Below are positions 967 through 16,794 of a DNA stretch of 64,000 nucleotides, one piece after another. Both the position numbers and the translations under genes were made by a program. The notes below the pieces were generated by a model. It searched no databases and had not been told where the DNA came from. It was given only the letters and a program-made list of their open reading frames with translations. Location: positions 1 to 64,000 of the forward strand of contig NZ_VCNC01000002.1 of assembly GCF_006210265.1 (NCBI RefSeq), in the 5' to 3' direction. This DNA comes from Desulfovibrio sp. UCD-KL4C. Lineage in GTDB: Bacteria; Desulfobacterota; Desulfovibrionia; Desulfovibrionales; Desulfovibrionaceae. The stretch's first letter is position 1, and every line of letters begins with the position of its first letter.

Positions 967-1045
967 CCACATGATAAAATTATTAACATTTTGCTTATAA
1001 TTATGTATCCAGTTTTCATACCTCATACTTAGGAGTTAAATTGTA

Positions 1046-1684
1046 ATGCAAAAATATAGTATAATCTTGTCAATTACCTTTGTCTTCTTTGTTGGCTTAT
1101 GGTGTGGAATTATGTCTGTAGTTTATTTTGAAGGTCTGTCTGGACATTATAAATTAGATGTTTTGCTGAAAATTTTTGGAACATTTTTAATGTTTGGAGT
1201 TGCTTGTATTGCAGCACGTATAAATTATAACAATTTGAAATGGCAAAAACAGTCGCGTGTATGGGAAATTAACAAAGGTATTCTTTTAGAACTATTACCA
1301 TTATTAAAAACAGCTATTTCTGAGACCGAAAAAGCTCTACAAAATGAATTAAATTCAATGCCTCCTAGTGGATATGAAGACGAGTGGGAAGAACCGGAGT
1401 CAATTAAAGTTGATTGGTCGTTCACTCCCAAGCTGGATGATAATTTGACAAAAGTTAAATTAATATATCAGCCTTTTTTGTCTAAAAAATTCATTGATTC
1501 AATAGATAAGTTTTTAGAGGAGAACTCTAGAATAAACGAGGAGGGTTGGATCAATGGTCCTGACCCTATGCTCTATGATGATTCAATCCTAAATTATAAA
1601 ATTTTAAAAGATGAAGCTAAGCAGTTTTGTATGAAGGTAGCAGGAATATATGATTTTCATACAAAGGACCTGATTGGTTTTTAA
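1046..1684 (+). CDS. Hypothetical membrane protein, prophage cargo
   Basis: A 212-residue protein of no family I recognise. Two hydrophobic segments lie near the N-terminus (about residues 5-29 and 39-57). A charged, Glu/Lys-rich cytoplasmic portion of about 150 residues follows, predicted mostly helical. The ATG is preceded by a good Shine-Dalgarno (AGGAG at 1031-1035, 10 bases upstream). It is more AT-rich than the tail gene before it and sits alone between the tail gene and oppositely oriented regulatory genes. That is a typical location for a lysogenic-conversion (moron) gene. A strong hairpin terminator follows directly. Function unknown; superinfection exclusion or host defence would be a guess from position only. 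Confidence 0.7.
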   Translation: MQKYSIILSITFVFFVGLWCGIMSVVYFEGLSGHYKLDVLLKIFGTFLMFGVACIAARINYNNLKWQKQSRVWEINKGILLELLPLLKTAISETEKALQNELNSMPPSGYEDEWEEPESIKVDWSFTPKLDDNLTKVKLIYQPFLSKKFIDSIDKFLEENSRINEEGWINGPDPMLYDDSILNYKILKDEAKQFCMKVAGIYDFHTKDLIGF

Positions 1685-1712
1685 TAGAATTAAGCTCGGT
1701 CATTTATAAAAT

Positions 1713-1750
1713 AAATCCCTCCAAACGGTTGGTTGGAGGGATTTGTTTTT
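1713..1750 (+). terminator. Intrinsic terminator after the prophage membrane-protein gene
   Basis: A perfect 12-bp stem (1713-1724 with 1733-1744) and an 8-base loop are followed by a GTTTTTT run. It sits between the convergent genes ending at 1684 and 1750. The opposite strand has an A/T-rich flank on the other side, so it may serve both directions. Confidence 0.85.
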
Positions 1751-1989
1751 TACTTTCGCACTAACTCCAAAACCGCCGCAGGCTTGCCTTTCCTGTCCTT
1801 CTTCTTTTGCTCTTCCACTTCGTACATACTAAAAGCTTCGGCTCCTTCTGAAACTTTCTTTCGTATTAAGTCCAGAAGGTAAGCTTCGCCATAGCGGTGT
1901 TCCAGTTCCATTTGGTCCCGTAAATATTCGAGGGAACATGCCGCAGACATCATATCCGAAACATGGTGACAAAGATCATTGTTACCCAT
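1750..1989 (-). CDS. Small hypothetical protein co-transcribed with Rha
   Basis: A 79-residue charged protein with no family I recognise. The middle is helical and rich in Glu and Leu, and the C-terminus is Lys-rich (EEQKKKDRKGKP). Its ATG lies inside the end of the upstream rha gene, with an 8-base overlap, so translation is probably coupled. The overlap and the shared strand support a real gene in the prophage regulatory operon. Confidence 0.6.
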   Translation of the reverse strand: MGNNDLCHHVSDMMSAACSLEYLRDQMELEHRYGEAYLLDLIRKKVSEGAEAFSMYEVEEQKKKDRKGKPAAVLELVRK

Positions 1990-2878
1990 TGTTCACCTCT
2001 CCGGCTATAATCTGTTCAGCTTCAATAAGCGCATCGTAGGCCATTAGCATTGCTTGGCGTTCTGCTCTTGGAAGTTGTTCCAGATTTTTGAGCATGACTT
2101 TTTTTGCTGTGGCTAAATTCGTGTTCTGTTGAACATGGCCATAGCTTACTGGCTCGGCTTTTTGCACAATTTTTGGCGCCGGATTGTCACTAAGTGAAAG
2201 TTTCGAAACCGCTTCCAGTTGCGGCGTAATGGCAATATTTGCCAAAATACGAGGCCGCTTGCCGTTCACTCTTGGACGGGTTTCACGAACATAGGTTGTG
2301 AGACAATATAAAGTCGTAAATAGACGGGCGCGGTGAACTGGTGATACATTATTGCGAGTGCAAAAATTGCAATAATGGGTGTAGATATCATCTTTTGAAA
2401 TCGTGCTGTCAGGATCTGGGCGGCATTCATTTTGTACGAACAGATTGATATGGTTATACCATAGCGGATGTTCTGCTTCGATTTTGCCTATGTATACGTT
2501 GGTGTTGGCCTGCTTTTGCAACAGCTCTTGTTCCATTGCATTGAAAGCTTCAAGGTAACGAATTTTCCATGCTGATGCTTTTTTGCCTGTGAAGCCCATT
2601 ACGAGATATGCGAAGCCGTCACGGGTGAGGTTGTAAGAAGGCTGTTTTTTGTTCTGAGCATTGACGTAAGAGGACGGCTGAAAATTCAGCTGTCTAAAAT
2701 TGTCTGGAACTTCGAGCTTTTCAATTGATTGCAATACATTCTTGTGCTGCTTGCTGAAATGCTCGGCAATCGTAATAGATGTAACTACAGGCTTGCCGTT
2801 TGAGACAACAAGCGTGGGTGAACCGACAACTGAACTGTTGTCAGAAGTTCGTGAATTGGCTAAGTTCTTTTCAGCCAT
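1982..2878 (-). CDS. Rha family phage regulatory protein
   Basis: This 298-residue protein has an N-terminal Rha domain (about residues 20-115). It includes the pattern SITIAEHFSKQHKNVLQSIE and later YNLTRDGFAYLVMGFTGKKA followed by WKIRYLEAFNAME, which is characteristic of phage pRha proteins. Rha in lambdoid phages interferes with growth in IHF-deficient hosts and is regarded as a regulator. The remaining C-terminal part (about 130-230, WYNHINLFVQNECRPD onward) resembles the DNA-binding winged-helix region near the C-terminus of phage/plasmid primases (D5/P4 type); this is a weaker impression. The start has an excellent Shine-Dalgarno (TAGGAGG) 5 bases before ATG. The operon order on this strand is the 54-residue RHH gene, then rha, then the 79-residue protein. 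Confidence 0.85.
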   Translation of the reverse strand: MAEKNLANSRTSDNSSVVGSPTLVVSNGKPVVTSITIAEHFSKQHKNVLQSIEKLEVPDNFRQLNFQPSSYVNAQNKKQPSYNLTRDGFAYLVMGFTGKKASAWKIRYLEAFNAMEQELLQKQANTNVYIGKIEAEHPLWYNHINLFVQNECRPDPDSTISKDDIYTHYCNFCTRNNVSPVHRARLFTTLYCLTTYVRETRPRVNGKRPRILANIAITPQLEAVSKLSLSDNPAPKIVQKAEPVSYGHVQQNTNLATAKKVMLKNLEQLPRAERQAMLMAYDALIEAEQIIAGEVNNG

Positions 2879-2956
2879 GACAACCTCCTATTAAGGTTGT
2901 TAGCGGTTAGGCTCGGTTTGGTGCTTCAACACCTTTCCGGGCCGTCTTTATTAGGG

Positions 2957-3121
2957 CTACTTTTCGTCTTTTTCTTTCTTCTTTGCCTCTGCCATTCGCT
3001 TTTCCATACATTCAATGAACATGTCTTTGATGGTCATTTCCTGCTCTGCGGAAAAGATTTTAATTCGTTTGTGTAGGTCTTTGTCCATACGCATAGTGAA
3101 CGTGGTTTGTTTTTCACTCAT
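2957..3121 (-). CDS. 54-residue ribbon-helix-helix (Arc-type) DNA-binding protein
   Basis: Reading the minus strand from an ATG at 3121 to a TAG at 2957-2959 gives 54 residues. They begin MSEKQTTFTMRMDKDLHKRI and continue KIFSAEQEMTIKDMFIEC, with a Lys/Glu tail. The pattern is a short beta strand of alternating residues (TTFTMRM), then D-x-x-L-H-x-x-I-K, then a turn and a second amphipathic helix. This is the classic ribbon-helix-helix layout of Arc/MetJ and plasmid or phage repressors. No good Shine-Dalgarno precedes the ATG. It lies just upstream of rha on the same strand and probably acts as a phage repressor or operon autoregulator. Any plus-strand frame here is a shadow. Confidence 0.75.
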   Translation of the reverse strand: MSEKQTTFTMRMDKDLHKRIKIFSAEQEMTIKDMFIECMEKRMAEAKKKEKDEK

Positions 3122-3127
3122 AAGGCT

Positions 3128-3156
3128 TTTATGCTTGAATGATTACATGATGTCAA
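3128..3156 (-). promoter_or_regulatory. Putative promoter of the RHH-rha operon, possibly leaderless
   Basis: On the minus strand TTGACA (3156-3151) is separated by 17 bases from CATAAA (3133-3128, 4/6 match). The ATG of the RHH gene at 3121 lies only 7 bases past the -10 box. Transcription starting at the usual distance would begin at or next to the start codon, which fits the missing Shine-Dalgarno. Confidence 0.45.
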
Positions 3157-3253
3157 TGGTCATAATTTTTATTGATCGTTTAAAGGAGTCGGAGTATCAA
3201 AGCTTCATAATTTAAATAGCTTATTCGTTTAATAAAACGTTGTGAGGGGTCAT

Positions 3254-3691
3254 ATGGGGGCAGCGCCAGTCGGTGGTAATGAGAAAGTTTTACTATACAA
3301 TAATTTTAAAACATGGAGTATACTTGCTCCTGTATGTGCTGTGGTTGTGATTGCAATATTTGGTGGATGCTATCATGTCTGCACCAATATTTTTGAAAAC
3401 CGTATCAAAGAATTGAAATTAAAAAATTCTTCATTGGAATCAAAAATATTATCATATGAGTTAGGTGAAGATTGGAATTTGCCAGAGAGCATTAAAACTA
3501 TGGGACGTGTTGCTACAAAATTGGATAATCTTCTTTCGAAGAAGAGTAAAATTGATTTTCTTGAACAAAGTTTGAAGTCTGCTGATGCTAAATTAGTTAA
3601 GTTTGAGCAAGTTAAAGCGGATGAAATTGAAAATTTACGACAATTGCAACAAGGTAAAATTCAGGTAATTAGCAGATCTCATTCAAAATAA
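3254..3691 (+). CDS. Hypothetical membrane-anchored coiled-coil protein
   Basis: Starting at the ATG at 3254, the protein has 145 residues. GAGGGG lies 4 bases upstream; a GTG at 3242 is an alternative start. One transmembrane helix spans roughly residues 17-38 (WSILAPVCAVVVIAIFGG). It is followed by about 100 residues of heptad-like, Leu/Lys/Glu-rich sequence consistent with a coiled coil. This gives a bitopic protein with a long helical domain, reminiscent of phage Rz-like spanins or inhibitory membrane proteins, but it shows no lysis-cassette neighbours. Low GC and position between the Rha operon and the attachment region suggest prophage cargo. Confidence 0.6.
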   Translation: MGAAPVGGNEKVLLYNNFKTWSILAPVCAVVVIAIFGGCYHVCTNIFENRIKELKLKNSSLESKILSYELGEDWNLPESIKTMGRVATKLDNLLSKKSKIDFLEQSLKSADAKLVKFEQVKADEIENLRQLQQGKIQVISRSHSK

Positions 3692-3727
3692 ATTTCAGCT
3701 TATGATGCTAAAATATATAAAAAAAAT

Positions 3728-4054
3728 ATGGAAATAGACCTTTTGTCAAAAGGACTTAAAAATCTTCAAGCACAGATTGCTACTGTTTTTTCTGATACAG
3801 GAGAGTTTGTTTTGCATGAGGGGCAGGGGTATACTTTTGCAGACGGGAAAATTGTAGTAGGTGTCATTGCTATATCAAAATATGATAATGGTCCTCTCGT
3901 TAATTTTAACAATATCGTGACCAAAGTTGGGGCAGGATCATTTAAAGATTTCGAGTTCGGTTCTAAAAGATATAAAGTTGTCGTTGACTCGATTGAAGAT
4001 GAAATCGTTCGATTTAGTTATTTTTGTATGCCGAAGTTTAAAATTAAAAAATAA
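3728..4054 (+). CDS. Hypothetical protein, last gene before the attachment region
   Basis: A soluble-looking 108-residue protein of no recognised family. It appears to be mainly beta (VLHEGQGYTFADGKIVVGVI and YKVVVDSIEDEIVRFSYF) with a Lys-rich C-terminus. No convincing Shine-Dalgarno precedes the ATG, and the upstream spacer is nearly pure A/T. It starts 36 bases after the coiled-coil gene and may be co-transcribed with it. Codon use is strongly AT-rich like its neighbour, unlike the housekeeping genes further right. Confidence 0.5.
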   Translation: MEIDLLSKGLKNLQAQIATVFSDTGEFVLHEGQGYTFADGKIVVGVIAISKYDNGPLVNFNNIVTKVGAGSFKDFEFGSKRYKVVVDSIEDEIVRFSYFCMPKFKIKK

Positions 4055-4058
4055 TTTG

Positions 4059-4078
4059 TGCACCAAATTTGCACCAAA
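4059..4078 (+). repeat. Tandem repeat pair TGCACCAAA, 11-bp period (candidate integrase arm sites)
   Basis: TGCACCAAA occurs at 4059-4067 and again at 4070-4078, exactly 11 bp apart and in the same orientation, directly after the last prophage gene. Closely spaced direct repeats one helical turn apart are typical arm-type sites of tyrosine recombinases (lambda, Tn916 class). Function is inferred from layout only. Confidence 0.5.
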
Positions 4079-4165
4079 ATCCAATAAATATGGGTAAAAT
4101 AGAGCAGATTTGTGCATACTTCGGGGAAATTAAAATGCTTAAATCATTGATTTAGTTGGCGCTGA

Positions 4166-4206
4166 ATTGGCGGTATACCCGTCTGGAAAGCGTGTTTTGT
4201 TAACGC
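4166..4206 (+). pseudogene. Possible tRNA-Ser(GGA)-like fragment
   Basis: The stretch CCCGTCTGGAAAGCGTGT (4178-4195) resembles the anticodon arm of bacterial tRNA-Ser(GGA), with loop CTGGAAA at 4183-4189. A possible variable-arm stem follows (GCGTGTTTTGTTAACGC). There is no acceptor or T-arm, and the anticodon stem is imperfect. It could be a scar of an integration event or chance resemblance. Confidence 0.25.
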
Positions 4207-4209
4207 AAT

Positions 4210-4246
4210 AAGCCCCTCACAACTAAAGTTATGAGGGGCTTTTTTT
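4210..4246 (+). terminator. Strong intrinsic terminator
   Basis: AAGCCCCTCA (4210-4219) pairs with TGAGGGGCTT (4232-4241), with a further AACT/AGTT pairing inside, followed by a T run to 4246. It is oriented to stop rightward transcription from the prophage cargo genes, or from whatever RNA gene the upstream tRNA-like fragment belonged to. Confidence 0.85.
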
Positions 4247-4267
4247 GTTGGATATCTTGTTGTTTAG

Positions 4268-4786
4268 TTAGAAAGGCTGACCGTTGTTAATCATGCTTGT
4301 TCCTGATTGAACAGCATGTACGCTGCCGACCTGTCCGTAATGTTTAAGTGCACCAATGAGTGCTTTACTCATTTTGGGATCATTGGAATTCCATTTAATA
4401 GTTGCATGTCCATGAATAAGATGGGCTGCAGTATCGGCAAGAACATAAAAGCGTGTTCCATAAGCTGGTATTTCAAAAACGCCTTCAATGAAAGGAACTG
4501 TGACTCCGCTTCCGCTTACGTAGTTACCAGTTAATACTTTTCCCAATGAAGTAATCTCAGCGCCTTCGTGGTCATATATGGTGATCTTGCAATTAACGGG
4601 AGTATTAGTAATATTTGAAATACTTAGATAGGTATTTGCAAAAGCGTGACTATGTACATAGGCAGAGTGTATGTTCGGTACAACAGTACTTCCTTGAGCA
4701 TTGAATACACTTTGCGCAAAGACGACACCATAAATGGAAAGAGTAATTGCAACAGTTAATACAGTAATACATAATGATTTTTTCAT
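4268..4786 (-). CDS. Secreted hypothetical protein
   Basis: This 172-residue protein has a clear Sec signal peptide (MKKSLCITVLTVAITLSIYG, then VVFAQS; cleavage probably after the Ala at about residue 24). The mature part appears to be beta-rich, with a pattern like AFANTYLSISNITNTPVNCK, which recalls small secreted beta-sandwich proteins that carry N- or C-capping Asn/Thr. A Shine-Dalgarno (AAGGA) lies 6 bases before ATG. It sits between two candidate attachment sites and is transcribed toward the prophage end. It may be a chromosomal gene stranded between integrated elements or part of an older island. Function unknown. Confidence 0.7.
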   Translation of the reverse strand: MKKSLCITVLTVAITLSIYGVVFAQSVFNAQGSTVVPNIHSAYVHSHAFANTYLSISNITNTPVNCKITIYDHEGAEITSLGKVLTGNYVSGSGVTVPFIEGVFEIPAYGTRFYVLADTAAHLIHGHATIKWNSNDPKMSKALIGALKHYGQVGSVHAVQSGTSMINNGQPF

Positions 4787-4897
4787 GATTAGTCCTTGAA
4801 TAGTGGTTTTGATATTATTTTTTACTTTTGTATTTTTTAGTTGGCTATGTCAAGCTAGTCTGAGAGTTCTTAATAAGGTATTAAAAGGTTAAAATTC

Positions 4898-4915
4898 TAC
4901 TCACGATTTACTCAC
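4898..4915 (+). repeat. Tandem repeat pair TACTCAC, 11-bp period
   Basis: TACTCAC occurs at 4898-4904 and 4909-4915, an 11-bp period in direct orientation. It lies about 80 bases left of the tRNA-Arg fragment. Together with the pair on the other side of that fragment it looks like arm-type recombinase sites flanking an att core. Confidence 0.5.
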
Positions 4916-4996
4916 CTTTCCACCAGCAATAACCAAATTTCAAGGGAATAGAATGGGTGTTAACTAGCTGAAATAACATGATGCACATTCTCTTTC

Positions 4997-5046
4997 ATGG
5001 CCTCCGGAGCTGAAGGTCGCAGGTTCGAATCTTGCATTGCCCACCA
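4997..5046 (+). pseudogene. 3' fragment of tRNA-Arg(CCG); likely attachment site scar
   Basis: The anticodon loop CTCCGGA (5002-5008, anticodon CCG) is followed by a 3' anticodon stem, a 5-base variable region, a good T-arm (stem GCAGG/CTTGC, loop TTCGAAT) and ATTGCCC-A-CCA ending at 5046. The upstream half does not form a D-arm or a matching acceptor strand, so only the 3' part of the tRNA is present. Tyrosine integrases commonly recombine in tRNA anticodon or T-arms and leave exactly such a 3' copy. The intact gene should lie at the other end of the inserted element, outside this window. Confidence 0.75.
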
Positions 5047-5054
5047 TAGAAATC

Positions 5055-5096
5055 AAGGGTTTACGTTGCTAAAGCATCGTGAACCCTTTTCTTTTT
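5055..5096 (+). terminator. Terminator following the tRNA-Arg fragment
   Basis: An 11-bp stem with one G-U pair (5055-5065 with 5078-5088), a 12-base loop and the tail TTTTCTTTTT. It probably is the original tRNA terminator carried with the att core. Confidence 0.75.
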
Positions 5097-5114
5097 GCTA
5101 CCCTAATGCTACCC
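5096..5114 (+). repeat. Tandem repeat pair TGCTACCC, 11-bp period
   Basis: TGCTACCC occurs at 5096-5103 and 5107-5114, again an 11-bp period, immediately right of the tRNA terminator. It is the third pair with identical spacing in about 1 kb. Candidate arm-type integrase sites. Confidence 0.5.
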
Positions 5115-5157
5115 AAAATTCTGAAATGTGCTCTGATAAACACTCATGAGGACGCTT

Positions 5158-5226
5158 ATGCCTTCCAATAATATTGCCTCTGAAAAGGCTGTTCTTGGGG
5201 CTGTTTTACGTAGCAGGATCAATTAA
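5158..5226 (+). pseudogene. N-terminal remnant of a DnaB-like replicative helicase
   Basis: A 22-codon frame reads MPSNNIASEKAVLGAVLRSR then IN and a stop. The segment N-I-x-A-E-x-A-V-L-G-A-V-L is the well-known start of DnaB helicases (replicative and phage forms). A good Shine-Dalgarno (GAGGA, 5148-5152) stands 5 bases before the ATG. Homology stops after about 17 residues, so the rest of the gene has been deleted. It likely remains from a phage or island that used the tRNA-Arg site. Confidence 0.6.
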
Positions 5227-5664
5227 AGGTGATTTTTTATGGTAGACAATTCGTATTTCATTATTGTAGTAGATTTTTCTTAAATGTAAGCATCTATAGA
5301 ATTATTTAGGGTCAAATTGATCACTTTGAGACGGGTGACTATGAGCAGTTAGAGGATACTTTGTCGCTGGAAAGCGATGTCTGGCTCGAGAGCTGTGACG
5401 TCGCCTGAATCTTTGGTTAGTACATCGAAATGTACTAGATGACGACTTGTGCCGTCAAAGAGTAAATAACACCTGCTTGAACAGTTCTTCAAACATTTAT
5501 TCAAAAAGAGCATCCTTTGGGATGTTTGCGTATGAATATCCCTTCCTTCCACCAAATAGGTGGTTTTTTTGTTGATGACTGTATTAAATTATAAATAAAA
5601 CGGAATGATACGCTAGGGTTGATATTGTTCAGGCTGGTGGGTCGCTCAGGTTAGGTTTAATTAA
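5227..5664. other. Intergenic region before the CotH cassette
   Basis: About 440 bases without a convincing gene. A plus-strand frame at about 5311-5403 (ends SDVWLESCDVA then stop) and overlapping minus-strand frames look like decayed coding sequence of the same element as the DnaB remnant. A small hairpin AGTACAT/ATGTACT lies near 5421-5438. A weak terminator-like hairpin (CCACC 5549-5553 with GGTGG 5559-5563, then seven T) ends this debris before the next gene. Confidence 0.5.
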
Positions 5665-7818
5665 ATGAATAAAAGTGGCCACAGCGTAATTGTTTTCTTT
5701 TTGGTAATTTTCTTTGCAGCTACGATTATACTTCCTCATAATGTAAATGCTCAAGATGTCGTTATCAATGAAGTTTTTATTGATGGAGGGACAAAATACC
5801 CAGACTGGATTGAACTTTATAACACTTCCGCAGCACCTGTTAATCTAAAAAACTATTGCTTATCAAATAAACTTGATCGTAAAAAATGGACGATAGAATT
5901 TGATCTGATTATCAACCCGCATAGCTATAAGCTACTCTATTGTGACGGCAAGGGTAAGCATGACCATACAAACTTCCACCTAAATGGTATTTCCGGAGAA
6001 GTTGCTCTTTTTTCTCCTTCAAACGTTGTGATTGACTCTCTCTCTTATACTGATATTCCTTTATTCTCTTCTATATGCCGGTGGCCCAATGGAACTGGGC
6101 CGTTTTTTGTTAATAAAAAACCGACAAAAGGGATTGCGAACCAACTTGGAGAGCATAAATTAAGCTTAAGAGCACAAGCTGATATCAAATTTTCTCATCC
6201 TAGTGGGAATTATAACCAGCCTTTTGAACTTGAGATTTACTCACCACAGAATGCGACTCTTTATTATACAACCGATGGAACTTTGCCTGACAGTTCCTCT
6301 TTAATATACACCACCCCTATAATTATTGATAAAACGACTATAATCCGTGTTGCGGCAATTCTTGATAACACCATATTAGGATATATTGCGCAGAGTTTTA
6401 TACTAAATAAAGAAACAACACTGCCTGTAGTTTCAATTATCGCTGATCCTAAGTTTTTTTGGGACGAAGATCTTGGCATATATACCGATGGAAATAATTT
6501 TAAGAACCTTAGTGGAGGAAACGAAAATTGGAGAAACAATAAACGCAGGCCTGTGCATATTGATTATATTACACAAAATGGATCATGGAATGTTGCTGGA
6601 AACATAAGAATTTATGGAGGAGCTTCACGAGGACGTCTGCAAAAATCATTCGCTATCTATGTAAACGATGGTCCCGACAAGTACGGTATAAAACATCAAC
6701 TCTTTTCAGGTGTTAAAAGAGAAAAGTATTCTGGAATTATTCTACGAAATGGCGGAGACGATTGGCTATGGGGACAGATTCGTGACGGTTTTCAACATAT
6801 TTTAGTCGAAAATAGGGTGGCCTGCGACACCTTGTCGTATCAGCCAGTTATTGCATTTCTCAATGGGCAGTATTGGGGATTATATGGAATGCGAGAGTTG
6901 CCAATTAAGACAAACTTACTAGCCAAACACAAACTCCCATTACAAAAAGTAGTAATTCTCGATGGCGGAGTAGATATTGCTTCCAAGAGAGGGCCATTTG
7001 CAAATATATCAAATATTCCAGCAGAAGGTGATTACCGCAAGCTCCTTGCTGACATGGACATCGACTCCTTTTTGGACTATCTGATCGTTGAATTTTACTC
7101 TGGAAATACAGACTGGCCAAGCAATAATATCAAATGCTGGAAGGCAAAGTCAACTAAATGGAATTGGATTTTATTTGATCTGGACCGAGGGTTTAATGGT
7201 AAAGGTTCAGATCCGGTAGATCAAGATCCTTTTGTTTCATTGCTTAAAAATAGCAAGTATAATCTTATGTTTAAGCAGCTCATGGCAAACAATAAATTTG
7301 CCAGAGATTTTTGCGCAAGGATGGTTGTACACACTTTAACCACTTTTAAATCAGAGCGAGCAATCAAAATTCTAAATGCGGTTGCCGACAAAGTGCGCCC
7401 TGAAATGCAGAGCCACATTAATCGGTGGAGGTGGAGCTGGGAGTTCAAAAGGCTCTTTATGAGTGTCGACAAGTGGGAAAATAATCTTGACGAAATTCGA
7501 GATTATTGTCGAAAACGTCCTGAGAATATCTTAAAATTTTTGGATAAGCATTTTTTGACTGGAACCACAAAGAACACAGAAATTAATATCACCATCAAAG
7601 GCAAAGGAACTATACTCGCAGAAGGGGTAAAATTGGATAATGGATACCTAAAAGGTCCTGTTCCGCAAAATATAATTTTGAATCTAACCGCAGTTCCAGC
7701 TCAAGGGTATTTTTTTAAAGGATGGGCTAGTAATCCTGAAAAGAGTCATCTTGAACTAAAAATTAAGGCTGGAGAAATATTTAAGAACTGTGCTGTTTTT
7801 GAATTAATTAAAAAATAA
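5665..7818 (+). CDS. Secreted lamin-tail / CotH-type kinase multidomain protein
   Basis: A 717-residue exported protein. A signal peptide ends near VNA-Q30. Visible domains in order are a lamin-tail (LTD) domain at about 31-137 (VVINEVFIDGG, DWIELYNTS), a chitobiase C-terminal-like beta domain at about 174-248 (LYYTTDGTLPDSSS), a CotH kinase domain at about 255-600, and a C-terminal InlB-B-repeat-like domain at about 638-690. CotH kinases are atypical eukaryotic-like protein kinases known from Bacillus spore coats. Candidate active-site elements are K327 (GRLQKSFAIY), E411 (GMREL), the segment NTDWPSNNIKCWK (481-493) and D505/D507 (WILFDLDRGF). It is the first gene of a three-gene cassette with DUF4956 and VTC proteins, 13 bases before the next. 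The substrate is unknown. Being exported, it presumably acts in the periplasm or at the surface. Confidence 0.85.
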   Translation: MNKSGHSVIVFFLVIFFAATIILPHNVNAQDVVINEVFIDGGTKYPDWIELYNTSAAPVNLKNYCLSNKLDRKKWTIEFDLIINPHSYKLLYCDGKGKHDHTNFHLNGISGEVALFSPSNVVIDSLSYTDIPLFSSICRWPNGTGPFFVNKKPTKGIANQLGEHKLSLRAQADIKFSHPSGNYNQPFELEIYSPQNATLYYTTDGTLPDSSSLIYTTPIIIDKTTIIRVAAILDNTILGYIAQSFILNKETTLPVVSIIADPKFFWDEDLGIYTDGNNFKNLSGGNENWRNNKRRPVHIDYITQNGSWNVAGNIRIYGGASRGRLQKSFAIYVNDGPDKYGIKHQLFSGVKREKYSGIILRNGGDDWLWGQIRDGFQHILVENRVACDTLSYQPVIAFLNGQYWGLYGMRELPIKTNLLAKHKLPLQKVVILDGGVDIASKRGPFANISNIPAEGDYRKLLADMDIDSFLDYLIVEFYSGNTDWPSNNIKCWKAKSTKWNWILFDLDRGFNGKGSDPVDQDPFVSLLKNSKYNLMFKQLMANNKFARDFCARMVVHTLTTFKSERAIKILNAVADKVRPEMQSHINRWRWSWEFKRLFMSVDKWENNLDEIRDYCRKRPENILKFLDKHFLTGTTKNTEINITIKGKGTILAEGVKLDNGYLKGPVPQNIILNLTAVPAQGYFFKGWASNPEKSHLELKIKAGEIFKNCAVFELIKK

Positions 7819-7831
7819 AGAGTCACCAAAT

Positions 7832-8755
7832 ATGATTAAGTCCATAAAAAAATATATCTTTCCAATAAACTGTGTAGTTGCTGCACTTTCAGTTTCTTCC
7901 TCTTTTGCCATAAACAGTGCGCTAAAACACAGCAACCTTCCACGTTTGCTACAAACTCTTCCTATTGGTGTTGCTGTGGGAGTAGTTCTTGGAATTATTT
8001 ACTTTTGGGGACTCAAAAAAGCTCTCTCAAAAATAGATGATAAATCAGCTGAAGAATTAAAATCTGGGATAATGTGGTTTAATTTTTCAATGATCAGTCT
8101 ATGGGCTGTAGTTCTTCCACTTCCTGCCGGTTACCTTGATTTCGTTGTAGGATTCATTTTTAGCGGAGGGTGTGCGCGTTTTGCTGGGGCTGTTTATACG
8201 GTTTTCGGATCTTCCATGTCGAACAGAAAACGTTTCGCAAACACTTTCGTTATCTTAACAGTTACAATTATGCTCGTAATTTCTGTAGTTAAAGCCTCTC
8301 TAGCTTTGTCGTTGGGTCTTGTTGGAGCTCTTTCGATTATTCGTTTTAGAACAGCAGTTAAGGAGCCTGAGGAACTAGCCTTTCTCTTTTTCACCATCGC
8401 GGTAGGACTTGGTTTTGGAGCAGGAAAAATAGGAATTACCTTAATTGCTTTTTGGGCAATTTGCATTGGGTTTATCTTATTTAAAAAGATAATTCCTGCA
8501 CAGACTATAGATAGTTCATACCTTGTCACTGTATACAGCTCTGAAACCAATATTCTTAATTCTGTTAAACAGTTTTTAAGTACGAATAATCTTTCATATG
8601 AATTTACAAGACTGGAGTCCAGTCCTGAAATGAAAAACTTCAGTTTTCTTGTTAATATTAACTCGCTTGATATTCTCTCAACTATTGACCAATATTTTCT
8701 GAAAGAAAACCTAGATGCAAGCGTCACTGTTGTACAAACAAGGGACTTGTATTAA
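7832..8755 (+). CDS. DUF4956 family membrane protein
   Basis: A 307-residue polytopic membrane protein. Hydrophobic segments lie at about 11-30, 43-60, 83-125, 137-157 and 183-215. The DUF4956 signature is ALSLGLVGALSIIRFRTAVK (about 158-177) followed by EPEELAFLFFTIAVGLGFGA. After the last membrane segment a soluble domain of about 80 residues remains (YLVTVYSSETNILNSVKQFL). DUF4956 proteins are of unknown function and often accompany VTC and CotH genes, as here. The stop codon overlaps the next start by one base, indicating tight coupling. A role as a membrane partner or channel for the VTC protein is inference from gene association. Confidence 0.85.
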   Translation: MIKSIKKYIFPINCVVAALSVSSSFAINSALKHSNLPRLLQTLPIGVAVGVVLGIIYFWGLKKALSKIDDKSAEELKSGIMWFNFSMISLWAVVLPLPAGYLDFVVGFIFSGGCARFAGAVYTVFGSSMSNRKRFANTFVILTVTIMLVISVVKASLALSLGLVGALSIIRFRTAVKEPEELAFLFFTIAVGLGFGAGKIGITLIAFWAICIGFILFKKIIPAQTIDSSYLVTVYSSETNILNSVKQFLSTNNLSYEFTRLESSPEMKNFSFLVNINSLDILSTIDQYFLKENLDASVTVVQTRDLY

Positions 8756-9438
8756 TGGGAACAAATAGCACGGACGGGACTGAATCTTATAGGTATGAGA
8801 GAAAGTTTATTGTTTCACAGCAACTAGAAAGTCATATTGAATCAGTGCTGACCCATAGCCGTTTAGGCTTTAGAAAACTCTATGATAAAAGAGTAGTTAA
8901 TAATATCTATCTCGATACGCCCATGTTTCGATTTTATAATGAGAATGTCATGGGTGTTTCAGATAGGAAAAAGATACGTATCCGTTGGTATGGAGACGCT
9001 ACTGTTGATGGGGATTGCCAATTAGAGATTAAACGAAAAGATGGAATGGTTGGTCGCAAAGAAATTTATCACGTTTTCCTAAAGCCGTCTGACTTACGTA
9101 AGAACAACATCATACGTCAGCTAGATTTACCTGACCGCGTAAAAATTGAAGCGCAAGACATATATCCGACTCTTTACAACAGATATACCCGTCGCTATTT
9201 TATTTCTTCTGATTCCAAATTTCGCATAACGATTGACTCTGATGTAAAATACTCTCATCCTAATACGCTTTATTACAATCACTGTTTTTTGGGAGTTTCA
9301 GAAACAAATCATATTTTAGAATTAAAATATGATTGTAAAAACGACATTACAGCGTCGCAAGCTGCCGATATTATCCCCTTCAGTTTAGCAAAGAAATCAA
9401 AATATGTGAGTGGCATAGAATCAATTTATATATTCTAA
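8755..9438 (+). CDS. VTC domain protein (polyphosphate polymerase-like)
   Basis: A 227-residue protein consisting almost only of a VTC domain, the tunnel-fold catalytic domain of the yeast vacuolar polyphosphate polymerase (triphosphate tunnel metalloenzyme superfamily). Visible tunnel motifs are YERKF (14-18), RIRWY (75-79), EIKRK (91-95), RYTRRYF (143-149), RITID (157-161), LELKY (188-192) and KSKYVSG (214-220). These keep the basic residues and metal-binding Glu expected of an active enzyme. It lacks SPX and membrane parts, so it would be cytosolic and depend on the DUF4956 protein for membrane association. Whether it makes polyphosphate, or binds or hydrolyses a phosphorylated polymer, cannot be told from sequence. 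Confidence 0.85.
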   Translation: MGTNSTDGTESYRYERKFIVSQQLESHIESVLTHSRLGFRKLYDKRVVNNIYLDTPMFRFYNENVMGVSDRKKIRIRWYGDATVDGDCQLEIKRKDGMVGRKEIYHVFLKPSDLRKNNIIRQLDLPDRVKIEAQDIYPTLYNRYTRRYFISSDSKFRITIDSDVKYSHPNTLYYNHCFLGVSETNHILELKYDCKNDITASQAADIIPFSLAKKSKYVSGIESIYIF

Positions 9439-9559
9439 GTTACAATTAAAGTCTGACGGTATTGTCACATAAAATTATTGATAAAACTTCATTATTAAAT
9501 GGTACTTTTGCACAGTAAAACAGTTCCGTGGCCTAGCACTCGTTACGAAAAACTGGAAA

Positions 9560-9579
9560 TAGCCTTTATAACAAGGCTA
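9560..9579 (+). terminator. Weak hairpin downstream of the VTC gene
   Basis: TAGCCTT and AAGGCTA (7 bp, 6-base loop) lie about 120 bases after the VTC stop, without a T tract. It may be a poor terminator of the cassette. Confidence 0.3.
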
Positions 9580-9755
9580 TAAATATACCCATTTAAAAAT
9601 CTTTATTACTCTCCATCTGATCCATAGGATTATCAAAAAAAATCACCAGCCCCTTGTGTCCAAGTCAAACCAACCAAGATCTGATGCATGTGTTTGAAGA
9701 TTCAATGCTCAACGTAATCTTTTTTATATATCAGGAAACAGGCTGTAAAAGATGA

Positions 9756-9836
9756 AATCTAATCGATGTACCGAACAGGCGAAGGGCAGGGGGGAAGTTA
9801 CACGCTAACTTAACAGGCGTCTTTCGAGATTAGGTT
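9756..9836 (+). ncRNA. Possible structured RNA element
   Basis: Three nested pairings occur within 81 bases. The outer stem is 9756-9764 with 9828-9836 (9 bp, one G-U). The middle stem is CGAAGG 9780-9785 with CTTTCG 9821-9826. The inner hairpin is AAGTTA 9795-9800 with TAACTT 9806-9811. ACAGGCG is present twice (9775-9781 and 9813-9819). The stretch is more GC-rich than its surroundings (a run of six G). It matches no riboswitch class I can recall. It is too far (about 175 bases) from the TPR gene to be certain it is part of its leader. Strand is assumed. Confidence 0.3.
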
Positions 9837-9908
9837 ATAGGTAGATTTTGAGATAATTTAAATACTGTATTTTAATCTGTTTAAAGTTCTTATATTAGGT
9901 AAAATTTA

Positions 9909-9937
9909 TTGACATTGAAAATCAATATCAGTAAACA
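9909..9937 (+). promoter_or_regulatory. Promoter with Fur-like operator upstream of the TPR gene
   Basis: TTGACA (9909-9914), a 17-base spacer and TAAACA (9932-9937, 3/6 match). A 9-3-9 inverted repeat (TGACATTGA at 9910-9918, TCAATATCA at 9922-9930) lies over the -35 and spacer. Its right part, TGAAAATCAATATCA (9916-9930), agrees at 13 of 15 positions with a TGAAAATNATTTTCA-type Fur box as described for Desulfovibrio. Binding by Fur would block the promoter; this is a prediction. Confidence 0.45.
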
Positions 9938-10010
9938 GAAATTATTATTTGAACAAATGAGACGCAAATTAAGAAAATTAAATTAGACATTATATTTTAA
10001 GGAGTAGACT

Positions 10011-10322
10011 ATGTGCGGTTTCAGTGAAGCATGGAAATTAAACAGAGAAGGGATGGCAGCGTGTAATGAAGGTGATTTTGAAAAAGCCGAAGAAAGTCTT
10101 TTAAAAGCTATCAATCTTGCCTCTTGTAATTCCCGCAAAATTCATCGGGCTACAATGTATAACAATTTGTCTGTAATATATCAGATGAGTGGCAGGATAA
10201 ATGATGCTGTAATGGCTTATGGAACTGCAATTAGTTATTTAAATCCCGATCATAAAGGGCAGGCTGCGTTAATTGCCAGAATGAAAGGTAAAATTGAATC
10301 TTTAAGAGATGTCGCTGCATAA
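10011..10322 (+). CDS. Small tetratricopeptide repeat protein
   Basis: A 103-residue protein with two to three TPR-like helical hairpins. Residues about 8-38 (GMAACNEGDFEKAEESLLKA) and 46-78 (TMYNNLSVIYQMSGRINDAV) carry the TPR consensus (small residue, G/A-x-x-x-x-x-x-A). It has no signal peptide, so it is cytosolic and probably a protein-interaction adaptor. An excellent Shine-Dalgarno (AAGGAG) precedes the ATG. It is a single-gene unit with its own promoter and terminator. A Fur-like operator suggests iron-dependent expression. Partner unknown. Confidence 0.75.
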   Translation: MCGFSEAWKLNREGMAACNEGDFEKAEESLLKAINLASCNSRKIHRATMYNNLSVIYQMSGRINDAVMAYGTAISYLNPDHKGQAALIARMKGKIESLRDVAA

Positions 10323-10345
10323 AAATATTTTTCCTATTTCTGGAA

Positions 10346-10380
10346 AAAACGGTAAATCTTTTATGATTTACCGTTTTTTT
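10346..10380 (+). terminator. Intrinsic terminator of the TPR gene
   Basis: A 13-bp perfect stem (10346-10358 with 10365-10377), a 6-base loop and a T run. Confidence 0.9.
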
Positions 10381-10444
10381 ATTTTTTCCAAGATAAATTA
10401 TCCAAATATTTTAGCTTAAATCATAAACCAAACCGTAACAGGGG

Positions 10445-10474
10445 TTGACTTTGTATGGAAACTGCCTAAATAAT
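10445..10474 (+). promoter_or_regulatory. Putative promoter of tig
   Basis: TTGACT (10445-10450), an 18-base spacer and AATAAT (10469-10474). It lies 120 bases before the trigger factor start codon, directly after the preceding terminator. Confidence 0.5.
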
Positions 10475-10594
10475 CCGAGTTCTTTTGCTATCAAATGTGA
10501 AAGGGTTCACTAGCCTTTTTTTATAGCATTGCTTACGTACATAACCGTCGTATTTTTCGACCACGGCGAATATATTTTAGAAGGAGTACATACA

Positions 10595-11902
10595 ATGGAT
10601 TTTAATATTGATGAAGTTTCCCCAGTAGAAAGAACTGTAAAGGTTACTGTTCCCGCAGAAGAAGTAGGCGCAGCACTTGATGCTACTATCGCACTTTACA
10701 AAGTGCAGACACCTATCAAAGGTTTCAGAAAGGGGAAAGTTCCTACCTCTGTAGTTCAGTCTAAGTACAAAAAACAGATCGTGGGCGAAGCAACAACTGA
10801 TCTGATTAATTACCAGATCAATGAAATTCTGAATGGTCAATCTATTGTTCCTGTTTCTAAAATAGATGTTGATGCTGCTGAACTCGTTAGAAATGAAGAC
10901 TTCAATTATACTATCAAATTTGAAATTGTTCCTGAATTTGAAACTCCTGTATATCTTGGACTTGCTGTTGACGAAGAACGCGCAGAAGTTCCTGAGAGCG
11001 AACTTGAAGATGTTGAAAAAAGACTCCTCCAGAACATGGCTAAAATTGAGCCTATCGAAGAAGATCGTCCTGCAAAAGACGGCGAACTTGCTTCTGTAAC
11101 TTTCTCCGCAGAAATGAATGGTGAACCTATTCCCGGTGTTCAGGCAGACAATTTTGATCTGCCTATCGGTGAAGGACACTCTCTGCAGGAATTTGAAGAT
11201 TTCGTAAAAACTCTCAAAGCTGGTGAATCCGGTCAGACTGATATTACTTTCCCTGAAGATTTCATCAATGCTGAACTTGCAAACAAGACAGCAACTATGA
11301 AAGTTACTGTTCACGCAGTTAAAGAACGCAAAATGCCTGAATTGACTGATGAAATTGTTAAGCAAATTGGCGGTTTTGAATCTGTTGAAAAAATGCGTGA
11401 AATCATCAAACAGTCATACACTGCTAACCGTAAACAGCTTTGCAAGAGCGCAGCTCTTACTAAACTGATCAGCTCAGTTGTTAAGGGTCTTGACTTCCCT
11501 CTTCCTCCTTCTCTTCTTAACGACCGCATTGAGCGTATGGTTGCAGACGTTATTACTCGTGCTGAACGTTCAGGACGCAGTTTTGAATCACTTGGTAAGA
11601 GCATGGAAGAACTTCGCGCAGAACAGACTCCTCTTGCAGAAGAAAGTGTCCGCACTGAAATATTCCTTCTTCATGTTGCCAATCGTGAAGAACTCACTGT
11701 TGAGCCTCAGGAAGTTGAAGGAGCTCTTCATCAGATTGCTCAACAGAGTAGCCAAGACTTTAGCTCTGTTAAGTCTTACTACGAAGAAAACAACCTCCTC
11801 ATGCCTTTGAAAGATAGACTGATTGCAGATAAAGCTGCTGAGTTCATCTATGAAAACGCAAGTGTTACTGAAGTAGAACCTGAAGAAAAAGGTGAAAAGT
11901 AA
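10595..11902 (+). CDS. tig: Trigger factor, ribosome-associated chaperone and peptidyl-prolyl isomerase
   Basis: A protein of 435 residues, the usual length. The ATG at 10595 is chosen because AAGGAG stands 8 bases before it and the protein then begins MDFNIDEVSPVERTVKVTVP, as in other trigger factors; the frame also extends upstream without support. The ribosome-binding motif region GFRKGKVP is present (G-F-R-x-G-K-x-P signature). It is followed by a PPIase (FKBP-like) domain about residues 155-245 and the helical C-terminal arms. Tig binds next to the ribosome exit tunnel and holds nascent chains. It lies upstream of clpP-clpX-lon, the classic bacterial order, but a terminator separates it from clpP. 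Confidence 0.98.
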   Translation: MDFNIDEVSPVERTVKVTVPAEEVGAALDATIALYKVQTPIKGFRKGKVPTSVVQSKYKKQIVGEATTDLINYQINEILNGQSIVPVSKIDVDAAELVRNEDFNYTIKFEIVPEFETPVYLGLAVDEERAEVPESELEDVEKRLLQNMAKIEPIEEDRPAKDGELASVTFSAEMNGEPIPGVQADNFDLPIGEGHSLQEFEDFVKTLKAGESGQTDITFPEDFINAELANKTATMKVTVHAVKERKMPELTDEIVKQIGGFESVEKMREIIKQSYTANRKQLCKSAALTKLISSVVKGLDFPLPPSLLNDRIERMVADVITRAERSGRSFESLGKSMEELRAEQTPLAEESVRTEIFLLHVANREELTVEPQEVEGALHQIAQQSSQDFSSVKSYYEENNLLMPLKDRLIADKAAEFIYENASVTEVEPEEKGEK

Positions 11903-11925
11903 TCTCTCCGTTTTATTATAATTAA

Positions 11926-11970
11926 AAAATGGCGGCACAGTTTATAAACCGTGTCGCCATTTTTATTTTT
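11926..11970 (+). terminator. Intrinsic terminator after tig
   Basis: AAAATGGCG (11926-11934) pairs with CGCCATTTT (11955-11963). The inside of the hairpin is partly paired (CAC/GTG and the palindrome GTTTATAAAC), and T-rich sequence follows. Confidence 0.85.
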
Positions 11971-12185
11971 CCGGGAAAAGGGTTGTCTATGATCGTATAT
12001 CTAGTTAACTAGTTTAATTAGAAAGGATGAATTCAAAGTTATTTTGATTTATACTTGAACATAGGCTTTCAAATGATTAGAATATCTTTTGGTAAAATGG
12101 CCCTTATGAAGGGTGGTTTAGTTCGCAATTCTGTGAATTTTACCCTTCTTTAATTATATTACATTTCTTCTTTCGGGAGATATAG

Positions 12186-12794
12186 ATGTCTGGAACCATA
12201 CCTATTGTTATTGAAACTACAGGACGCTCTGAGCGCGCTTATGATATTTATTCACGTCTTCTGAAAGATAGAATTATCATGCTCGGAAGTGCGATTGATG
12301 ACCATGTTGCAAGTGTTATTTGCGCTCAGTTACTTTTTTTAGAATCAGAAGATCCTGAAAAAGAAATTTTCATGTATATTAATTCTCCTGGTGGGGTTGT
12401 TACTGCTGGTATGGCGATTTATGATACCATGCAATACATTTCAGCTCCTGTAGCCACCCTTTGTATGGGGCAGGCCGCTAGCATGGGGGCATTTCTTTTA
12501 TGTTCCGGCGAAAAGGGCAGTCGTTATTCTTTGCCGAACAGCCGTATCCTTATTCATCAGCCACTCGGCGGTGCACAGGGACAGGCTACTGATATTGAAA
12601 TTCAGACCAAAGAGCTTCTTAGACTCAAGAATAATCTGAATGGCATAATGGCCGATAATACAGGTAAGAGTCTTGAAGAAATTAAAAGAGATACAGATCG
12701 CGACTTTTTTATGTCTGCCGAAGAAGCTATTGAGTACGGACTTATTGATAAGGTCCTTACTTCGCGTGGAAATCTTGAAGCCAAGGAAGGTTAA
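12186..12794 (+). CDS. clpP: ATP-dependent Clp protease proteolytic subunit
   Basis: The protein is 202 residues long, standard for ClpP. The catalytic triad aligns with E. coli at a constant offset of two: S99 (GQAASMGAF), H124 (ILIHQPLGG) and D173 (DTDRDFFM). The N-terminal loop ([22 protein letters not shown]) and the oligomerisation sensor region are intact. ClpP forms a 14-subunit barrel that degrades proteins delivered by ClpX or ClpA, both encoded in this window. clpX begins 6 bases after the stop, so the two are co-transcribed and ClpX translation uses a Shine-Dalgarno inside the clpP end. Confidence 0.99.
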
Positions 12795-12800
12795 TTCCTG

Positions 12801-14051
12801 ATGAGTAACGATAAAAAAGGTTCAGGACAGGACCTTCATTGCTCCTTTTGTTCTAAATCTCAGGATGAGGTTCAGAGACTGATTGCCGGGCCTGATGTTT
12901 ATATCTGCGACGAATGTGTCCAGCTCTGTAATGACATCATGGCACAGGAAGCAGTTAGTGAGGAGTTTGATGCAGGGAACTTGCTGTCCCCACAAGAAAT
13001 TAAAGATTTACTTGATGAGTACGTTATCGGACAGGATCGCGCTAAAAAGATTTTAGCTGTTGCTGTCCATAACCATTACAAACGAGTTTTCTATACTAAG
13101 TCAGGTTCTGATGATGTTGAAATCGATAAAAGCAACATCCTTCTGATCGGACCAACTGGTTCAGGTAAAACTCTGCTTGCGCAGACTCTTGCAAGGGTTC
13201 TGAAAGTTCCTTTTGCAATTGCAGATGCAACAACTCTTACTGAAGCTGGATATGTCGGTGAAGATGTAGAAAATATTCTTGTTCAGCTTTTACAGAATGC
13301 TGACTATGATATTGAATCTGCTTCTCGCGGAATTATCTATATCGATGAAATAGACAAAATTTCCCGTAAGGGTGATGGACCGTCTATTACTCGTGATGTT
13401 TCCGGTGAAGGTGTGCAGCAGGCATTGCTGAAAATAATTGAAGGAACTGAAGCTAATATTCCTCCTAAGGGGGGACGTAAGCATCCTCAGCAGGAATTTA
13501 TTAGACTTGATACTTCAAATATTTTGTTTATTCTCGGTGGTGCCTTTATCGGACTTGATTCGATTGTACAGCAGAGATTGCAGGGATCTGGAATCGGTTT
13601 CGGTGCAAAAGTTGAATCCAAGAAAGAACTTGGTGTCAGCGAAATGTTCCGTAAGTCTGAACCTGCTGACCTTGTAAAATTCGGTTTAATTCCTGAGTTT
13701 GTGGGGCGTATTCCTGTTCAGACAGCTCTTTCTGAACTTACCGAAGATGATCTGGTTCGCATTCTTCAGGAACCTAAGAATGCGCTGATCAAACAGTACA
13801 AAAAAATGTTTGATCTAGATGGCGTGCGTCTGACATTTACATCAAATGCTCTTAATAGCATTGCCAACCTGGCTGTAAAAAGAAAGACTGGTGCCCGTGG
13901 ACTTAGAAATGTTCTTGAATCGATCATGCTTGATATTATGTACGTCCTTCCTTCTCTTACCGGAGTAAAAGAGTGCGTCATCAATAAAAGTGTTGTTGAA
14001 ACAGGAATGGATCCATTACTTATTTACCATAATGAAGTAAAAAGTGCATAA
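12801..14051 (+). CDS. clpX: Clp protease ATP-binding subunit ClpX
   Basis: This AAA+ unfoldase is 416 residues long, with an N-terminal C4 zinc-binding domain (CSFC...CDEC, about residues 15-40). Its Walker A motif is GPTGSGKT and its Walker B region is [10 protein letters not shown]. The pore loop GYVGEDVE, the ClpP-docking loop IGFGAK and the sensor-2 region TGARGLR are all present. It recognises ssrA-tagged and other substrates and feeds them to ClpP. It is coupled to clpP with a 6-base gap. A strong terminator follows, so lon is a separate unit. Confidence 0.99.
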
Positions 14052-14058
14052 ACTTATC

Positions 14059-14096
14059 AGCGCCTCTAGTCGATAAGACTTGAGGCGCTTTTTTTT
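14059..14096 (+). terminator. Intrinsic terminator of clpP-clpX
   Basis: AGCGCCTC (14059-14066) pairs with GAGGCGCT (14082-14089), with AGTC/GACT inside after a T-T mismatch, followed by at least seven T. Confidence 0.92.
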
Positions 14097-14269
14097 GTTC
14101 GCCTGCCTTGATTCTTTTTTTCTACATATTTCAAATGTTTTTTGTTATTTTTTTTAATTGCAATAAATATCCATTTTCAGATTTGACAAAACAATTGTGG
14201 GTATTATTTCACTTATTCAGACTTATTGTTAAATTTGAAAACTTTTCCAGATTAAAAGCAGGAGGATAA

Positions 14270-16723: not shown

Positions 16724-16746
16724 TTAGTCTCTGATTTTAAAATGTT

Positions 16747-16783
16747 AAAGGGTGCTTACTAATTAGTGAGCACCCTTTTTTTT
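16747..16783 (+). terminator. Intrinsic terminator of lon
   Basis: A stem of about 14 bp with an AATT loop (AAAGGGTGCT...AGCACCCTTT) is followed by eight T. Confidence 0.92.
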
Positions 16784-16794
16784 ATAATTTTTAT

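Follow-up and report, generated by a model that had tools for sequence, protein, structure and literature searches.

A co-occurring CotH, DUF4956 and VTC gene trio in Desulfovibrio may form a module for phosphate chemistry across the inner membrane

In Gram-positive bacteria, cotH, a poly-phosphate polymerase gene, DUF4956 and DUF4832 adjoin the Pel operons, and the first three are contiguous with pelDEADAFG in streptococci, clostridia and bifidobacteria, according to excerpts of PMC7112168. Excerpts of a 2025 study of Streptococcus intermedius, whose Pel accessory genes SIR_1591-1594 hold the three families contiguously and include a secreted CotH (PMC7112168, PMC12345266), state that Pel loci were the only ones where the trio was found, assign an MgtC transmembrane domain and an ACT domain to SIR_1592, the gene at the DUF4956 position, and describe an aggregation defect, with opposite effects on the Pel level, upon deletion of the CotH or the DUF4956 homologue (PMC12345266). 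In NELoc-2 of Clostridium perfringens, a virulence-associated locus whose genes are annotated only in the excerpted text, two VTC genes each stand beside a 'tubulin/FtsZ' gene, followed by CotH (PMC2879425); these 'tubulin/FtsZ' genes are probably DUF4956. Here we analyze the same three families, encoded as a cassette in a 64,000-nucleotide stretch of Desulfovibrio sp. UCD-KL4C (assembly GCF_006210265.1, contig NZ_VCNC01000002.1, positions 1 to 64,000), hereafter the window. This cassette differs from the Pel accessory genes in that PelG, the only pel gene searched, lies on another contig of the genome (C1:1071783, the cassette being on C2), and in that its CotH protein carries LTD and CHB_HEX_C domains.

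The main finding is that the three families occur together. Pfam profile searches of the 288 genomes of the host family detected DUF4956 in 33, VTC in 33 and CotH in 31; 34 genomes carry any of the three and 254 carry none. All three are present in 30 genomes, or in 31 when the divergent CotH of G045 is counted (1409 aa, CotH domain at 7e-34 with our own profile), so that the genome-wide co-occurrence on which the initial annotation had staked its reading is found in 30-31 of the 34 carriers. The exceptions are G041, without DUF4956 and with VTC and CotH each less than 1 kb from a contig start; G055, where DUF4956 is the only one of the three, its contig measuring 4.5 kb and the genome being 92% complete; and G098, without CotH, whose genome is 78% complete. 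Physical linkage is not always observed: the three genes lie on three separate contigs in G088, G089, G092 and G114, and in G114 37 kb of a 109-kb contig separate the DUF4956 gene from the closer contig end. Among control genomes, C. glutamicum and M. acetivorans match all three families, B. subtilis has CotH only, without VTC and DUF4956, and Bacteroides ihuae has VTC and DUF4956 only.

The distribution is patchy, VTC being found in just 3 of the 17 genomes of the genus. The other two carriers, G004 and G011, harbor a divergent cassette elsewhere in the genome, with DUF4956 proteins 20-22% identical. In a DUF4956 tree with a midpoint root and several long branches, in which the deep joins are unsure, the copies of the family fall in at least four separate groups: the window protein groups with genera g37 and g31 and one g13 genome (support 100/100), those of G004 and G011 are placed near g18 and a Lachnospiraceae row, g12 stands apart, and G045 is apart again. 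The strongest indication that the three genes act together is this repeated joint arrival, and they very probably constitute an obligate functional unit.

To look outside the family, genome contigs were scanned with the DUF4956 profile; at least 583 stretches were confirmed, and the best 80 were taken as a sample. A family was scored as present if found anywhere in the fetched stretch at E 1e-3 with our own profiles. These 80 loci span many phyla, Pelagibacteraceae, Bacteroidota, Chloroflexota, Planctomycetota, Verrucomicrobiota, Myxococcota and Bacillota being among the groups represented. All three families were found in 50 loci, DUF4956 and VTC in 14, DUF4956 and CotH in 12, and DUF4956 alone in four; the last four stop no more than 400 bases short of a contig edge, as do most of the 12 loci without VTC (L167 does not). 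In the genomes of the 14 loci without CotH, the latter was detected elsewhere in 12, over the cut-off in 11, with up to 72 matches in one genome. Four Verrucomicrobia genomes show a huge expansion of CotH matches (72 in G694, 26 in G684, 23 in G682 and 17 in G685, the genomes of loci L183, L130, L118 and L140), many of them within open frames of 1000-3000 aa. The VTC-DUF4956 pair of L070 is near a gene for a Cthe_2159-type carbohydrate-binding protein, at a distance of two genes; no CotH was detected in that stretch, and the exported partner may be replaceable.

PelG is missing from 29 of the 33 DUF4956 genomes of the family and is no commoner with DUF4956 than without (4/33 versus 27/255, P 0.77 in a Fisher test blind to phylogeny), and the 25 commonest neighbour families (of 101) include no Pel family. 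The restriction of the trio to Pel loci therefore does not hold. The trio itself is already in print, mainly as a Pel accessory, in the excerpted descriptions of Pel loci (PMC7112168, PMC12345266) and NELoc-2 (PMC2879425).

The VTC protein is best compared with the yeast VTC complex (Vtc1/Vtc3/Vtc4), with which the cassette shares the catalytic residues of the TTM polymerase and a membrane part with conserved basic residues (PMC9911596, excerpts). Among solved structures, the best match of the VTC profile was Vtc4, the catalytic polymerase subunit (3g3q, E 6.4e-20), the matches to Vtc2 and Vtc3 being weaker. In an alignment of 25 sequences drawn from 35 VTC matches, in which the starts of L100 and L104 were trimmed, 15 columns are invariant. 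The window residues K17, R75, R77, K93 and R146 correspond to Vtc4 K200, R264, R266, K281 and R361, while R157, E189, K191 and K216 correspond to R373, E426, K428 and K458, all conserved in 25/25 sequences. Vtc4 was inactivated by changing R264, R266 and E426, the triple mutant being described as catalytically impaired in the excerpted text (PMC9911596). The tunnel residues that the initial annotation had described as kept thus map onto the Vtc4 active site. Given this conservation, the protein is likely to form polyphosphate or pyrophosphate. Pfam detected VTC as the only domain of the protein and no SPX domain, which makes the protein VTC-like, not a VTC complex; the system further differs from that of yeast in the replacement of DUF202 by the MgtC-like DUF4956 and in the addition of an exported kinase.

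The CotH protein resembles the Bacillus spore-coat kinase (5jd9/5jda). Its model aligns with B. cereus CotH (5jd9) with a Z score of 29.0 and a root-mean-square deviation of 2.7 over 323 residues; the mean pLDDT is 58.7 overall and mostly 70-90 in the kinase part. Although phmmer with the protein alone matched no CotH structure, the profile, built from 48 of the 62 locus sequences and that of the window, did. Profile alignment and structural match both place D483 and D505 at the positions of the D228/D251 pair; in B. cereus CotH the two aspartates are 23 residues apart, the same spacing as from 228 to 251. The CotH D228Q and D251A proteins are catalytically inactive according to excerpts of PMC7821199, and the acidic motifs noted in the initial annotation are indeed found on the known active site. 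Across 103 CotH sequences under E 1e-5 (out of 105 matches), the D505 column holds Asp in 87, and the D483 column holds Asp in 43 and His in 47. The conserved fold and the catalytic aspartates of the window protein suggest a kinase activity. What separates it from Bacillus CotH is its export together with LTD and CHB_HEX_C domains, and the fact that CotH in this family occurs only with VTC and, barring one gap, with DUF4956. Long CotH proteins, such as L122:17089-19686, mostly have His at the Asp228 position, some have a C-terminal beta-helix, and they may have a different chemistry; a right-handed beta-helix was found by Pfam in three of six long proteins scanned (L100, L112 and L122, not L145, L153 and L195).

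The DUF4956 model (mean pLDDT 80.4) consists of membrane helices followed by a C-terminal ACT-like domain, an arrangement resembling that of the MgtC family. Residues 225-307 match ACT domains with Z scores of 9-11, among them that at the C-terminus of P. aeruginosa MgtC (7qa5) with 9.3, with which unrelated ferredoxin-like domains, such as those of EF-G, tie. An hhalign comparison with MgtC gave a probability of 87.8 and an E of 3.3e-6 over 182 columns, the MgtC alignment consisting of three sequences. Pfam MgtC did not match the window protein, a sequence search of the PDB returned weak matches only (best E 0.2), and the structure search, whose rows were dominated by residues 225-307, gave no informative match for the membrane part. 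A likeness to MgtC has been noted earlier for the S. intermedius homologue, in the excerpts of PMC12345266. Unlike MgtC, DUF4956 has its own RFRxxxK motif: R171, R173 and K177 are invariant in 65/65 sequences (64 of the 73 locus sequences and the window) and are placed between two predicted membrane helices. In L146 (positions 8056-9450, Chloroflexota) a 3-keto-disaccharide hydrolase domain is fused to the DUF4956 N-terminus, which ties DUF4956 to glycans; L148, L155, L159 and L173 have DUF4956 open reading frames of 448-527 aa; and L105 and L107 contain tandem duplicated DUF4956-CotH pairs beside one VTC gene, the CotH frame overlapping the DUF4956 end, from which DUF4956 may pair one to one with CotH.

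In the 80 loci, metallophosphoesterases that mostly look exported are enriched beside the trio, and an exported-looking inorganic pyrophosphatase adjoins it in five; both observations are new. The neighbour set comprised same-strand genes of 110-900 aa, called by a simple longest-open-reading-frame rule with L140 and L187 skipped, and the 87 of these 142 genes that directly adjoin the cassette or lie within it were searched against Pfam. The top families among these 87 genes were Metallophos (10) and Pyrophosphatase (5). With our own profiles, metallophosphoesterases were detected in 18 of the 276 genes no more than two genes from the trio versus 0 of 540 farther off, and pyrophosphatases in 5 of 276 versus 2 of 540. 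By eye, most of these phosphoesterases and pyrophosphatases start with a signal- or lipoprotein-like sequence, including the six pyrophosphatases inspected; all six keep the DGDxxD aspartates, and two match a stricter signature. Pyrophosphatase and VTC genes overlap in L142, a Pareuzebyella sediminis locus in which a phosphoesterase is encoded beside the pyrophosphatase, and in L145; the distance from the pyrophosphatase gene to the cassette is 4 and 6 bases in the Pelagibacteraceae loci L153 and L191. Bacterial family I pyrophosphatases are normally cytosolic, and exported copies therefore point to pyrophosphate or polyphosphate outside the cytoplasm. Taken with the phosphoesterases, they suggest that the trio is linked to phosphate chemistry outside the cytoplasm. 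In L063, L068, L114 and L115, DUF4956 is flanked by a second Metallophos cluster, which was disregarded because of its resemblance to SbcCD and the SMC-like AAA protein that accompanies it.

The phosphate donor is a problem for secreted kinases, ATP being scarce outside the membrane; B. subtilis CotH works in the mother cell, which contains ATP. We propose, with a probability of roughly 0.45, that VTC, DUF4956 and the exported CotH make up a single obligate module, which handles phosphate chemistry across the inner membrane. In such a module, the cytosolic VTC protein would turn ATP into polyphosphate or pyrophosphate, an activity suggested by its homology and residues. DUF4956 might dock VTC and pass or gate the chain across the membrane, like the Vtc1/3/4 helices in yeast, a role proposed because of the analogy with the yeast complex, the conserved basic residues and the exported pyrophosphatases. 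In our estimate, there is an even chance that a phosphoanhydride reaches the outside. The exported CotH, held to the cell surface or to glycan by its LTD and CHB_HEX_C domains, would then phosphorylate a protein or a glycan of the envelope. With ATP scarce at this site, the exported phosphoanhydride could be its donor, although we regard this step as doubtful. Exported pyrophosphatases and metallophosphoesterases, seen in relatives and not in the window, would process the remainder. The reading of the initial annotation, a membrane-coupled system that would make or use polyphosphate or another phosphorylated polymer together with a surface kinase, is partly supported: the single functional unit and the catalytic residues are borne out, a link to phosphate chemistry outside the cytoplasm gains support, and the making and use of polyphosphate are predicted from sequence.

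Several observations weigh against this proposal. His occupies the Asp228 position in 42/60 long CotH proteins (at least 780 aa), as opposed to 5/43 shorter ones, and many partners may thus not be ordinary kinases. An N-terminal hydrophobic stretch was detected by a crude test in just 71/103 CotH sequences, some of which have truncated starts. The excerpts of the S. intermedius study report no aggregation defect upon deletion of the VTC homologue, which argues against a need for VTC in the action of CotH in that assay (PMC12345266). The enrichment of pyrophosphatases is weak by itself (P 0.047, in a Fisher test that ignores phylogeny), and three of the four phosphoesterases tested resemble cyclic-AMP phosphodiesterases below the cut-off, so their substrate may be unrelated to polyphosphate. 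The window cassette has no adjoining pyrophosphatase or phosphoesterase gene. Yeast Vtc1 is a DUF202 protein, and we know of no translocation by DUF4956. A narrow search of open-licence papers found none on polyphosphate as the donor of a secreted kinase; likewise, the titles or abstract openings of open-licence papers on DUF4956, CotH, bacterial VTC and polyphosphate did not propose the export-and-donor model.

The Pel literature invites another explanation, in which the trio is an exopolysaccharide accessory that tunes Pel or another secreted polysaccharide, with CotH as a regulator or a glycan-modifying kinase. The contiguity with Gram-positive pel genes and the deletion phenotypes cited above speak for it, as do the PelG genes found on the same contig ~19 and ~22 kb from the trio in G004 and G011, the glycosyltransferase, Wzy or MBOAT neighbours at some loci and the Chloroflexota disaccharide hydrolase fusion; since PelG is mostly lacking, no commoner with DUF4956 and on another contig in the window genome, and Pel families are missing from the commonest neighbours, we consider this explanation unlikely. 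A cytosolic role is a little less probable still. VTC would make a polyphosphate store inside the cell for phosphate homeostasis, DUF4956 would be an MgtC/ACT-type sensor, in agreement with its MgtC similarity and its ACT-like domain, and CotH would be a separate surface kinase of the same regulon. PPK1, which has no match in the window genome and was found in 3/33 VTC genomes versus 63/255 others, fits this idea; the tie of CotH to VTC and DUF4956 even where the genes are unlinked, and the exported appearance of the adjacent pyrophosphatases and of most phosphoesterases, do not. Finally, the TTM fold serves several reactions, and a TTM domain without SPX might belong to a triphosphate tunnel enzyme with another product, for instance a triphosphatase, the module then supplying a different phosphorylated donor to the envelope. 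As Vtc4 is the best solved-structure match and its mutated catalytic residues are kept, this seems quite improbable.

The features of the cassette are collected in Table 1. Open reading frames and Pfam confirmed the three adjacent same-strand genes of the initial annotation, as well as the lamin-tail, chitobiase-C-like and CotH domains of the first protein, whose N-terminus is signal-peptide-like by eye. Its InlB-repeat-like part was not retained, Flg_new_2 scoring 16.3 bits, under the Pfam cut-off of 23.6. The CotH gene ends 13 nt before the DUF4956 start, and the one-base overlap reported between the DUF4956 stop and the VTC start is present, as TAATG. Terminator-like hairpins, identified by consensus match only, are found before the CotH gene at 5549-5563 and, as the next one on the same strand past the VTC gene, at 10343-10380. 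No Rfam match to a structured RNA reached the gathering threshold in 1-20000, and no NCBIfam model exceeded its cut-off for any window protein or for eight neighbour or partner proteins. An anti-phage defence function was set aside, since PADLOC matched none of the three proteins and neither of the two neighbour enzymes searched, a phosphoesterase and a pyrophosphatase.

Table 1. Coordinates of the cassette, of the flanking tRNA fragment and of pyrophosphatase genes adjoining related cassettes
Feature	Position	Strand	Basis or remark
Signal-peptide-like stretch of the CotH-domain protein	5665..5751	+	~29 aa, ends ...HNVNA; by eye
Exported CotH-domain protein, 717 aa	5665..7818	+	Open reading frame, Pfam and sequence inspection
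Lamin tail domain (LTD)	5749..6051	+	Pfam PF00932, E 1.4e-14
CHB_HEX_C_1 / Fn3_assoc domain	6199..6363	+	Pfam, E 1e-12 and 3.1e-10
CotH kinase domain	6418..7557	+	Pfam, E 1.2e-33; model residues 252-631 match 5jd9/5jda, Z 29.0
Asp483, equivalent of B. subtilis CotH Asp228	7111..7113	+	Alignment
Asp505, equivalent of B. subtilis CotH Asp251	7177..7179	+	Alignment
DUF4956 MgtC-like membrane protein, 307 aa	7832..8755	+	Pfam, E 1.3e-16
ACT-like (ferredoxin-like) C-terminal domain of DUF4956, residues 225-307	8504..8752	+	Structural match
VTC-domain (TTM) polyphosphate-polymerase-like protein, 227 aa	8755..9438	+	Pfam, E 1.6e-27; Vtc4 3g3q
tRNA-Arg(CCG) 3' fragment, flank outside the cassette	5000..5046	+	47 bp, 100% identity to the intact gene
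Pyrophosphatases directly beside VTC or DUF4956	L142:14251-14913, L145:5040-5642, L149:9196-9798		Signal/lipoprotein-like N-termini
Pyrophosphatases directly beside VTC or DUF4956, Pelagibacteraceae (SAR11 relatives)	L153:14088-14714, L191:9186-9866		Signal/lipoprotein-like N-termini

On its 5′ side, the cassette is preceded by a prophage-like element tail (window 1-5046, with a baseplate hub gene and Rha), the contig starting inside the element. The tRNA-Arg(CCG) fragment, an exact copy of the 3′ end of an intact gene on contig C6, is the attachment-site scar ending this prophage-like DNA. On the 3′ side lie a TPR gene and then tig, clpP, clpX and lon, names read from the sequence rather than from a family scan. 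Comparison of window 1-13000 with 16 same-genus loci by blastn gave no match inside 5137-9805, the stretch holding the cassette; other genes fill the interval in the two loci whose open reading frames were read, as they do in the closest relative, G005, whose tig product is 94% identical. An intact tRNA-Arg(CCG) is located upstream of tig in six of the 16 loci (L085, L086, L087, L089, L092 and L093), in the orientation relative to tig opposite to that of the window fragment, and an inversion or a separate integration may therefore have shaped the slot. Since relatives have other genes in this interval, the slot is variable; arrival of the cassette by transfer is probable, with no element carrying it visible. 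The integration hotspot postulated upstream by the initial annotation is thus partly supported, by the tRNA-Arg scar, the prophage-like genes and the variable slot, although no second attachment-site copy was found within the window. Nothing beyond the patchy distribution and the variable slot speaks for the suggested mobility of the cassette itself: as mobile cargo it was rejected, given a single attachment-site copy and no tblastn match of the window DUF4956 protein among 72,556 records of plasmids and 50,697 of phages, no search having been aimed at an integrase. A 172-aa exported-looking protein without a Pfam match is encoded at 4268-4786 on the reverse strand, and the locus L080 of a relative encodes two similar-looking small exported proteins (8286-8774 and 9014-9523).

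The most complete form of the proposal is itself tentative and, in our judgment, unlikely: VTC and DUF4956 would export polyphosphate or pyrophosphate that powers the exported CotH, resulting in an ATP-independent phosphorylation of envelope proteins or glycans outside the membrane, with an exported pyrophosphatase and phosphoesterase completing the cycle, and one such machine may serve the many CotH proteins of Verrucomicrobia. If true, the donor problem of secreted kinases would find an answer in a module that combines an exported kinase and exported pyrophosphatases with a polyphosphate-polymerase homologue and an MgtC-like membrane protein. DUF4956 and the bacterial VTC proteins would then be given functions, and the trio would be freed of its label as a Pel accessory.

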